From: Archaeoglobaceae archaeon
Lineage (GTDB): Archaea > Halobacteriota > Archaeoglobi > Archaeoglobales > Archaeoglobaceae
Assembly: GCA_027036775.1 (NCBI GenBank)
Contig: JALWDS010000038.1
Location: 1 to 57,153, forward strand
Direction: 5' to 3'
Length of the DNA: 57,153 bases
The position numbers were made by a program, and so were the translations under genes. The notes beneath the pieces are model-generated. The model worked only from the letters and a program-made list of their open reading frames with translations. It searched no databases and was not told the DNA's origin. Shown one piece after another: positions 28,155-30,849 of the stretch (position 1 is its first letter; every line of letters starts with the position of its first letter).

Positions 28155-28349
28155 ATGCCAAGGAAGGTAGCGGTAGTTAACAGATACAGGTGTGCCTACT
28201 GCGGTGCGTGCGTTTCCGTCTGTAAGTTCAACGCAAACGAGCTGATAGAAACCTTTCTCCAAATTTACGAGGACAGATGCAACGGTTGTGGGATGTGCGT
28301 TAAGGTATGTCCCATGAACGCTTTAGAGGTGATCGAATGTTCGACGTAG
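28155..28349 (+). CDS. Two-cluster ferredoxin next to geranylgeranyl reductase
   Basis: 64 residues with two 4Fe-4S motifs: [15 protein letters not shown] and [16 protein letters not shown] chose ATG 28155; a TTG at 28101 would overlap the previous gene by 32 bases and add an unconserved head. The end overlaps the geranylgeranyl reductase start by 13 bases. In Methanosarcina a ferredoxin encoded beside geranylgeranyl reductase is required for full saturation of archaeal lipids, so this one probably feeds electrons to its neighbour. Note that the first motif ends in C-K instead of the usual C-P. Confidence 0.88.
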
Positions 28350-29497
28350 TAGTGGTTGGGGCTGGACCGGGAGGTAGCATTACCGCAAAGACCTGTGCGG
28401 AAAACGGTTTAAACGTTCTTTTGGTTGAAAAAAGACAGGAGATAGGAGTTCCAGTCAGATGTGCCGAAGGAATAAGTAAATCCGCTTTGGAGAGGTTTGT
28501 TGAGCCTAAGAAGTTCTTCATATCGAGGGAAGTTGTGGGTGCGAAGATTTACGCACCTGATGGGACTGAAATAACTCTGAGTGAAGAGAGGGCTGGTAAC
28601 GAGGTAGGATACGTCTTGGAGAGGAAGGTCTTCGATAGGTATCTGGCAAAGCTTGCATCCAACGCTGGGGCTGAGGTTTTGGTTAAAACGACAGCCTACG
28701 CTTTTGAGAGGAAGGATGGGATCGTTAGGGTTAAGTTGAGGAGGATGGGTGAGGAGTGGGAGGTTGAAACGAAAATTGTCGTTGGTGCGGACGGTGTTGA
28801 AAGTAGGGTTGCAAAGGCCTTCGGAATAGACACGACACTCAAACCGAACGAGTTGGAGAGTTGCGTTCAGTATCTGATGACGAACATCGACTTCGATCCA
28901 GACTACTGCCACTTCTGGTTGGGAAAATCCATTGCTCCAGGGGGTTACATATGGTTGTTTCCCAAAAAGGTTGGAGCCAATGTTGGGATTGGCGTGATGC
29001 CCTCGTTAGCAAAGAGATCACCCAAGGAGTATTTGGACGATTTCGTTTCTGAAAGATTTCCAAACGGTAGAATAGTTGAACTCGTAGCTGGTGCGGTCCC
29101 GGTTTGTGGTGAGATAGAGAGTGCAGTCGCTGATAACTTGATGCTCGTGGGTGATGCGGCAAGACATGCAGATCCTATAACTGGTGGAGGAATTGCAAAC
29201 GCCATGAAGGCTGGCTACTACGCTGGGAAGGTTGCTGTTGAGGCTGTTAAAAGGGGAGATTTCAGCAAAAATTTCCTCAAGAGATACGATAAGCTCTGGA
29301 AGGATGACTTCGGCAAGGATTTGGCCAGAAAGAGGAAGTTACAGCAGAAACTTATAAAGATGGATGACGAAACCCTCAACAAGATTTTCCGTAGTATTCC
29401 GAAGAACATCAAAGAGTTGAGCGTTAGGGCGATAGTTTTGGAGATATTCAAAAAGCATCCAAAGCTACTTTGGGATATTAAGGATTTGATACTTTGA
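28337..29497 (+). CDS. Digeranylgeranylglycerophospholipid reductase
   Basis: Flavoprotein that saturates the geranylgeranyl chains of archaeal lipids. 386 residues from ATG 28337 (AGAGGTGAT before it). FAD motif [20 protein letters not shown] at the N-terminus, [11 protein letters not shown] (the C/G loop), [15 protein letters not shown] and the second FAD motif [20 protein letters not shown] (about residues 271-290) are family hallmarks. It overlaps the ferredoxin gene, its likely electron donor. The stop codon abuts the hairpin array at 29498. Confidence 0.93.
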
Positions 29498-29625
29498 CCT
29501 CCTCCCCATCTAAGGATGGGCCTCCGACACGGAGAACTCGGCAATGCCGAGCGAGGTTGCGGTTGAACCGCATAAAGGGACGGTCAAAGCCCCCGACGGA
29601 GCTATCCATTGGATGGCTCCGTCAA
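29498..29625 (+). mobile_element. Hairpin array resembling an IS200/IS605 right end or omega-RNA remnant
   Basis: 128 noncoding bases, beginning right after the reductase stop, hold five stems: CCCATC-TAAG-GATGGG (29505-29520), CTCCG-ACA-CGGAG (29522-29534), CTCGGC-AAT-GCCGAG (29537-29551), TGCGG-TTGAA-CCGCA (29558-29572) and a 13-bp stem with one G-U pair (29595-29623). TCAA follows the last stem. A TGA followed by CCTCCTCCCC and a stem, then the GCGAGGTTGCGGTTGAACCG block, resembles the region after tnpB in IS605-family elements. No tnpA or tnpB is present. A stand-alone structured RNA is the alternative. Family link is from memory. Confidence 0.45.
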
Positions 29626-29644
29626 AAAAAGAGGAACTGAAAAT

Positions 29645-29706
29645 GTATTTAAATCATTCCGTGCTTTTCTCCGCTTTGAAAAGCGAGGTTTTCGCACGGA
29701 GGTGAT
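29645..29706 (+). promoter_or_regulatory. Promoter and structured leader of the SPASM radical SAM gene
   Basis: TATA-like GTATTTAAAT is at 29645-29654. TCCGTGC (29658-29664) pairs perfectly with GCACGGA (29694-29700), and CGCTTT-GA-AAAGCG (29672-29685) stands inside. GCTTTTC (29663-29669) can instead pair with GAAAAGC (29678-29684). The right arm runs into the ribosome-binding sequence GGAGGTGAT (29698-29706). Either a DNA operator or an RNA switch is possible, depending on where transcription starts. Confidence 0.45.
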
Positions 29707-29709
29707 ACT

Positions 29710-30849
29710 ATGATGGACTTCAAGAAAAAACCCTTCATAGTCTTTTGGGAGGTTACGAGGGCCTGTCTGTTAGCCTGTAAGCACTGCAGAGCCAAAGCTC
29801 AAACAAAACCCCATCCCGACGAGCTTAAGCTTGAGGAGTGCTACGATTTGATAGATCAGCTAAGGAGATGGAATCCACTCGTAATAGTAACGGGTGGCGA
29901 TCCCCTAATGAGGAGAGACCTCTTCGAAATACTTGAGTATCTCGACGGAATGAGGGTTGCAATAGCTTTCAGTGGAACCAAGTTGGCTACGAGGGAAAAG
30001 CTTGAGAAGATGCACGATTTGGGAGTTGCGAGGATTGCGGTAAGCATAGATGGGAGCAATCCAGACATCCACGATCACTTTAGAGGGAGAACTGGAACCT
30101 TTGAGATGAGCATGAAGATACTGGATTTGGCGAGGGAAATAGGTTTATCGACCCAGATAAACACGACCGTAACTAAACACAACATCTTTGACTTACCGAA
30201 CATCATGAAAATCTGTTTGGAGAAAAAAGTAGATATGTGGGACGTGTTCTTCGTAGTTCCGACTGGAAGGGCCAAGCCAGAGTTGATGCCTTCCGCAAGG
30301 GATTTCGAGGACGTCATGTGCTGGCTTTACGATGTAAGTAGGAGAACCCCCTTGAACGTTAAGAGTTCGGCTGGTTGCCACTTGAGAAGGATAGAATTCA
30401 TGAGAGACAAGAATATCTACGACATTCCCCACGGCAAAACGTATTACGAGCTTTCAAAGAGCTTGGAAGGTTTGAAAGAGGAATACGATAGGAAGATAGT
30501 GGCTGGAGCTTATGGAAGAAGCATGGCGTTGAAGAGGATTCCAGGGATTACCGATGGTAGAGGAATGTTCTTTATAAGTCACGTCGGTGACGTTTATCCG
30601 AGTGGATTCTTGCCTTTGAAGGCCGGAAACGTGAGGGAAAAAAGTTTAGACGAGATTTACAACGAGAGCAAGATATTTCAGGATTTGAAAGACCCGAACA
30701 ACCTCAAGGGTAAGTGCGGAAGGTGTCAGTTCAAGGAGATTTGTGGAGGGAGTAGGGCGAGAGCATATGCTGTATTTGGTGATTACCTCATGCAGGAACC
30801 TAAGTGTATATACACTCCGAGCAAATATTTTGATAAAGTAGTTAAATAA
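29710..30849 (+). CDS. Radical SAM/SPASM protein (TIGR04053/AhbD-like)
   Basis: 379 residues. FWEVTRACLLACKHCRAKA (about residues 12-30) holds the radical SAM cluster C-x3-C-x2-C, TGGDPLMRRDL the glycine-rich SAM motif, and the C-terminal SPASM region has CGRCQFKEICGGSRARAYA and a later cysteine. The wording FWEVTRAC...HCRA is shared by the heme-synthesis proteins AhbC/AhbD and the TIGR04053 group of unknown function. Without neighbouring heme genes I cannot separate them. It has a GGAGGTGAT ribosome binding site and a leader that can fold in two ways. An ATG follows directly at codon 2. Confidence 0.8.
   Translation: MMDFKKKPFIVFWEVTRACLLACKHCRAKAQTKPHPDELKLEECYDLIDQLRRWNPLVIVTGGDPLMRRDLFEILEYLDGMRVAIAFSGTKLATREKLEKMHDLGVARIAVSIDGSNPDIHDHFRGRTGTFEMSMKILDLAREIGLSTQINTTVTKHNIFDLPNIMKICLEKKVDMWDVFFVVPTGRAKPELMPSARDFEDVMCWLYDVSRRTPLNVKSSAGCHLRRIEFMRDKNIYDIPHGKTYYELSKSLEGLKEEYDRKIVAGAYGRSMALKRIPGITDGRGMFFISHVGDVYPSGFLPLKAGNVREKSLDEIYNESKIFQDLKDPNNLKGKCGRCQFKEICGGSRARAYAVFGDYLMQEPKCIYTPSKYFDKVVK

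Follow-up and report, generated by a model that had tools for sequence, protein, structure and literature searches.

A probable minus-strand mini-element of IS200/IS605 type, carrying an HgcC-like RNA, next to a reductase gene in an Archaeoglobaceae genome

Main finding

The segment from 29494 to 29701 of the window, by which we mean the whole 57,153-nucleotide stretch of Archaeoglobaceae DNA analysed here, is probably a minus-strand, non-autonomous mini-element of the IS200/IS605 type; it has no tnpB, it carries both ends, a promoter-like box and a complete HgcC-like, omegaRNA-like scaffold, and TnpA and TnpB would act in trans. This reading builds on what sequence comparison shows, namely the copies, the ends, the target rule and empty sites in relatives, the structure and strand of the RNA, and the inversion of tnpB. 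The features are as follows.

29494..29701, minus strand: whole mini-element, 208 bp, left to right end (copies in C18, 85%, and C37; boundary rule from relatives' filled/empty pairs)
29659..29701, minus strand: left end with subterminal hairpin CCTCGCTTTTCAAAGCGG at about 29669-29688 (motif common to the left ends of same-genome canonical tnpB elements)
29646..29653, minus strand: TATA-like box TTTAAATA, 30 bp before the first stem (spacing kept in C18, C37 and G041)
29494..29623, minus strand: putative omegaRNA scaffold, HgcC-like, about 130 nt (HgcC 28.6 bits, below gathering; model R1 24.1 bits; class covariation)
29595-29623, minus strand: first stem of the scaffold; 29494-29597, HgcC core; terminal GGTCAA closing at 29494
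29474..29493, minus strand: putative guide flank AGTATCAAATCCTTAATATC, antisense to the reductase 3' end (from its position past the right end)
29702..29705, minus strand: target site TCAC (plus strand GTGA), outside the element (TCAC/CCAC at the left-end flank of inspected copies)
29698..29705, plus strand: Shine-Dalgarno-like GGAGGTGA, GGAG from the element and GTGA from the target (sequence; junction repeated in C18, C37 and G041)
28307..29497, plus strand: geranylgeranyl reductase family gene (Pfam GGR_cat, NCBIfam TIGR02032)
29495-29497, plus strand: reductase stop codon TGA, inside the element
29710..30849, plus strand: radical SAM/SPASM gene directly past the element (NCBIfam TIGR04053, 437 bits)

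Extent of the element and its copies

The first-pass annotation had described stems directly 3' of the reductase stop codon (29498-29625), and they are located there: folded as RNA, positions 29498-29640 reach a minimum free energy of -71.2 kcal/mol versus a shuffled mean of -43.5 (z = -6.4), which 0 of 200 shuffles equalled. The 13-bp stem and the TCAA that it had noted at 29623-29626 are present; this TCAA is, however, not a conserved right-end mark, as the plus-strand motif at 29623 reads TCAT in C37 and TCGG in G041, and the conserved TCAA is that of the minus strand at 29497-29494. The repeat is larger than the hairpin array, extending over 29494-29701 and including, besides the stop codon, one more palindrome near 29669-29688.

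The copy search that had been proposed turned up additional copies in this genome, including one that flanks an intact tnpB. The stretch C18:105057-105270 is an 85% copy spanning window positions 29494-29704, and in C37 the repeat is in two halves, separated by 1.1 kb that hold the intact tnpB. Copies were likewise found in related genomes, among them G041 and G029, two genomes from another genus of the family. The G029 copy is shortened and still holds a piece of the tnpB 3' end (GGAATATCGCTCTCCGTGCTCC), which identifies it as an internal-deletion derivative of a tnpB element; no close TnpB of the inverted clade described below was found in G029, so some copies may be relics. This truncated copy (L011:1500-1674) sits amid phage-like structural genes, with a major capsid-like gene upstream, and such elements may therefore travel with viruses.

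Among the copies listed for G000, seven exceed the HgcC gathering score; L120-L123 and L125 are TnpB-less with a left end about 80 bp upstream of the RNA, and L119 runs off its contig. TnpB-less elements of canonical layout with an omegaRNA-like right part also occur (L127, L128 and L129 in G002, L022 in G000), and the stretches shown for the G002 elements are nearly identical in three copies. Units made of a left end, a TATA-like motif and an omegaRNA, again with no tnpB, were observed in Desulfurococcaceae, Ignisphaera and Thermosphaera bins (L151, L152, L154, L156, L160, L167, L169, L170, L191, L194, L196, L204, L207, L209 and L214); from these similar units, guide-only mini-elements seem to be widespread among hyperthermophilic archaea.

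Ends, target rule and mobility

In the same genome, a canonical tnpB element (L027) has the left end GAAAGCCCCGCTTTTCAAAGCGGGGATGAATT before tnpB, and another (L030) has a right end ...CTTTAGGGCGGGGAGGATGTCAAG after tnpB. Read on the minus strand, the window element carries both canonical motifs, with the left-end hairpin at about 29669-29688 and a right end ...CCTTAGATGGGGAGGAGGTCAA closing at 29494. Subterminal palindromes, a hallmark of IS200/IS605 elements, lie at both of its ends and are common to the tnpB-bearing elements; with its 208 bp, the absence of tnpB, the palindromes near its ends and ends shared with tnpB-bearing elements, it has the properties by which PATEs are recognised.

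Filled and empty sites in relatives define the boundaries. At psmA-SBDS, G000 carries an element (GGGGAA|CTGACC...AGGAGT|GTGATGAATTATG) and G002 has the vacant site (GAGGAAGTGATGGATTATG); at the L086 site it is G002 that carries the element (TATTG|CTGACC...GGTT|GTGATACTATGG) and G000 that has the vacant site (TACTGGTGATGGTATGG). These pairs show entry 3' of TCAC on the minus strand, no duplication and a right end TCAA or TCAG; a fixed short target without duplication, as in the IS200/IS605 family, is thus found in the relatives. In the copies inspected, the window copy included, the left-end flank is TCAC or CCAC. For the window copy no strict empty site was found among relatives, where the gene order around the reductase differs, and the empty reductase/radical-SAM junction is predicted to read GATTTGATACT|GTGATACTATG. 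The C18 mini-element, the closest relative of the window copy, is absent from its locus in G001 and G002, the junction not being alignable base by base. A Pop5/RNase P-like gene of the psmA-SBDS operon has a second mini-element at its 5' end (L024:3760-3965), the left end of which may encode the first residues of the protein.

No TnpA (PF01797) was detected in this draft genome; PF01797 is present in G002, G041 and others. The missing TnpA speaks for a dead scar, that is, an IS605 element that has lost its interior, with hairpins that are just DNA structures formerly used by the transposase and with an RNA that is absent or useless, as do the tnpB remnant in the truncated G029 copy and the known DNA role of right-end and left-end palindromes. 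We consider this explanation unlikely, since in many TnpB-less copies compensatory changes have preserved an internal RNA domain and not just the end palindromes, and since both the strand bias of the wobble pairs and a promoter-like box at a fixed distance, described below, argue against it.

Insertion point and flanking genes

In the window, the GTGA of the target forms the second half of GGAGGTGA ahead of the radical-SAM ATG and the GGAG belongs to the element, while the TGA stop of the reductase comes from the element's TTGA. Judged by eye, the same GGAG|GTGR-ATG junction is found in C18, C37 and G041, and several further copies are near a start codon. The upstream stop and the downstream ribosome site stay usable because TCAC complements the Shine-Dalgarno GTGA and the tips of the element supply GGAG and TTGA. 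As TCAC is the complement of the ribosome-site GTGA, the pattern may require merely the target rule and survival.

Half of the next gene's ribosome site comes from the element and the predicted RNA is antisense to the 3' end of the reductase, as would suit a regulatory role in which the element had been domesticated, as RNA or DNA, to serve its neighbours as a mobile promoter, a ribosome site or an antisense RNA. We hold domestication to be quite improbable, given that the neighbours differ from copy to copy and that the site is not conserved in relatives. That the array is simply the 3' UTR or the terminator of the reductase gene, as its start at the stop codon would suggest, can practically be discarded: copies adjoin unrelated genes and the plus strand has no T run afterwards. 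Conservation only with the reductase, which the first-pass annotation had named as the sign of a plain 3' UTR, was not what we found, as the stretch is absent from the relatives' reductase orthologues; together with the same-genome copies, these stretch-free orthologues rule out the 3' UTR or terminator.

Structure and strand of the RNA

An Rfam scan of the window at gathering scores returned a single tRNA and nothing else. The best Rfam family for the array is HgcC (RF00062), matched on the minus strand over the full model with 28.6 bits (E = 7.7e-5 in a 401-nt search); as this is below the HgcC gathering score of 50 bits, we name the window copy HgcC-like and not a member. The tnpB-bearing relatives and the TnpB-less copies of a second subfamily score 65.8-94.5 bits against HgcC, above the gathering score. 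A covariance search had been proposed, and it bears the RNA out: R1, a model built from 14 HgcC-type RNAs with zero window-type copies, and so without the window's subfamily, recovers the window with 24.1 bits (E = 0.0016 over 190 kb). This match and those to the window's four sisters fall where expected and on the expected strand, and the model also picks canonical omegaRNAs on the tnpB strand.

In a covariation alignment of 22 sequences, 93.5% of cells are paired and both sides change in 14 of 27 pairs, the alignment being fitted to the model, which favours it. The covariation score was reached by 0 of 500 shuffles, a test that relatedness inflates, and was lost on sliding. When the distinct helices, picked by a strand-neutral rule, are read on the HgcC strand, 14 G.U pairs are counted versus 2 A.C; this test rests on the HgcC core helices, and the helices of related copies are not fully independent. 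The first stem (29595-29623) gave no strand signal in a hand count. Four window-type copies have a TATA-like motif 30-31 bp ahead of their first stem, and in 10 of 14 other HgcC-type copies such a motif lies 28-32 bp ahead of the RNA.

The last 36 nt of an HgcC-type copy match the right end of an annotated tnpA-tnpB element of Saccharolobus solfataricus pMGB1 (100%) and that of another in Sulfolobus islandicus pHVE14 (97%), both sense to tnpB. In a distant BLAST of a mini-element against plasmids the match was limited to the last ~35 nt; short Klebsiella matches were also returned. By its sequence and model matches to canonical right ends, the RNA has the form of an omegaRNA, with a 3' hairpin and right end followed by a putative guide derived from the flank.

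A plus-strand omegaRNA ending at the TCAA at 29623 is excluded by the end rule, by the non-conserved TCAA and by the minus-strand HgcC and R1 matches. The first-pass annotation's proposal of an IS200/IS605 omegaRNA-like RNA with its right end, in a small non-autonomous element without tnpB, was thus borne out in kind and reversed in orientation; the bases after 29625, which it had taken as the guide, are not, the RNA being on the minus strand with its right end at 29494 and the putative guide running from 29493 downward.

An inverted tnpB lineage

In C37 (L023), L024, L031 and L035, tnpB lies opposite to the RNA, starting on the side of the RNA and right end and pointing to the left end. A Thermococcus bin (L208) has this inverted tnpB too, as have two genomes that belong to a different family of the phylum (L131, L134). 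The seven inverted TnpBs, from three archaeal lineages, group into a single clade (100/100 support) in a tree of 21 TnpBs. Beyond this clade, the RNA is sense to tnpB at its 3' end in L190, L212, L219, L130 and L135, the outgroup members for which the RNA layout was located. OmegaRNAs typically sit at the tnpB 3' end, on the tnpB strand; this placement is not seen here: the window has no tnpB and in the seven full-length relatives the layout is inverted. The full inverted-tnpB element at L031:1300-2700 (G002) appears to break a PIN-domain-like gene.

P0001, the TnpB encoded in C37, is complete (167 bits to NCBIfam guided_TnpB), and in an alignment with solved homologues its catalytic D, E and D positions coincide with theirs. 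A search of the Genome_contigs set with the TnpB protein as query gave no matches.

Discussion

The window RNA resembles HgcC in its full-length minus-strand match, in the same core helices and in the GGAGGAGGTCA end, and differs from it in the score below gathering and in an extra 5' stem. With the omegaRNA (reRNA) of IS200/IS605 TnpBs it shares the 3' hairpin and a terminal TCAA/TCAG followed by flank, to which the 36-nt near-identity of an HgcC-type copy with annotated tnpA-tnpB right ends is added. Known reRNAs/omegaRNAs, however, come from the tnpB 3' end and right end, overlapping and on the same strand (PMC8612924, PMC10640517), whereas the RNA of the full-length relatives lies upstream of tnpB on the opposite strand. 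PATEs are transposase-free IS605 derivatives with near-end palindromes and no target duplication (PMC3119063), as is the case here; terminal-only PATEs are fused ends of ~52 bp (PMC3119063), unlike the window element, in which a promoter-like box and an entire structured RNA are retained. A weak match to sot0042 (RF02656) overlaps the HgcC match at same-genome canonical tnpB 3' ends; sot0042 differs in being sense to tnpB, and no match to it was reported in the window copy.

We favour the mobile mini-element, for which we propose the following course of events. A Y1 transposase (TnpA) provided in trans would have moved the element as single-stranded DNA to a position 3' of TCAC. Its own promoter, the TATA-like box, would drive the RNA, whose 3' end would run into the flank to yield the guide AGTATCAAATCC..., and the TnpB of the full-length C37 sibling may bind this RNA; the inverted layout differs from that of characterised TnpB systems, so that this pairing is putative. 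TnpB might then cut the empty donor site (TCAC + guide AGTATCAAATCC...) and so favour retention; cutting of empty donor sites by TnpB has been proposed for ISDra2 (PMC8612924).

More broadly, HgcC could be the omegaRNA of a TnpB lineage with a flipped tnpB, in which the uncoupling of guide transcription gave rise to guide-only transposons that use TnpB in trans and insert at ribosome sites while leaving stop and ribosome site usable; we regard this proposal, drawn from the HgcC-type copies described above, as evenly balanced. The function of HgcC was described as unresolved in 2017 (PMC5732400). No link between hgcC and TnpB was found in the literature searched, which mostly left out subscription journals, so that an earlier mention is possible. 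We read the window element as a guide-only mini-element of an inverted-tnpB lineage, the main new point being the HgcC link.

With this link, an orphan archaeal RNA family would gain a function open to testing. The findings also point to a lineage of TnpBs in which guide RNA and tnpB mRNA lie on opposite strands, so that the guide cannot be excised from that mRNA, in contrast to the processing reported for other TnpBs (PMC10278001). Through guide-only mini-elements that bring their own promoter, the action of TnpB guides in trans would become directly testable, and likewise the retention of elements that have no nuclease of their own.
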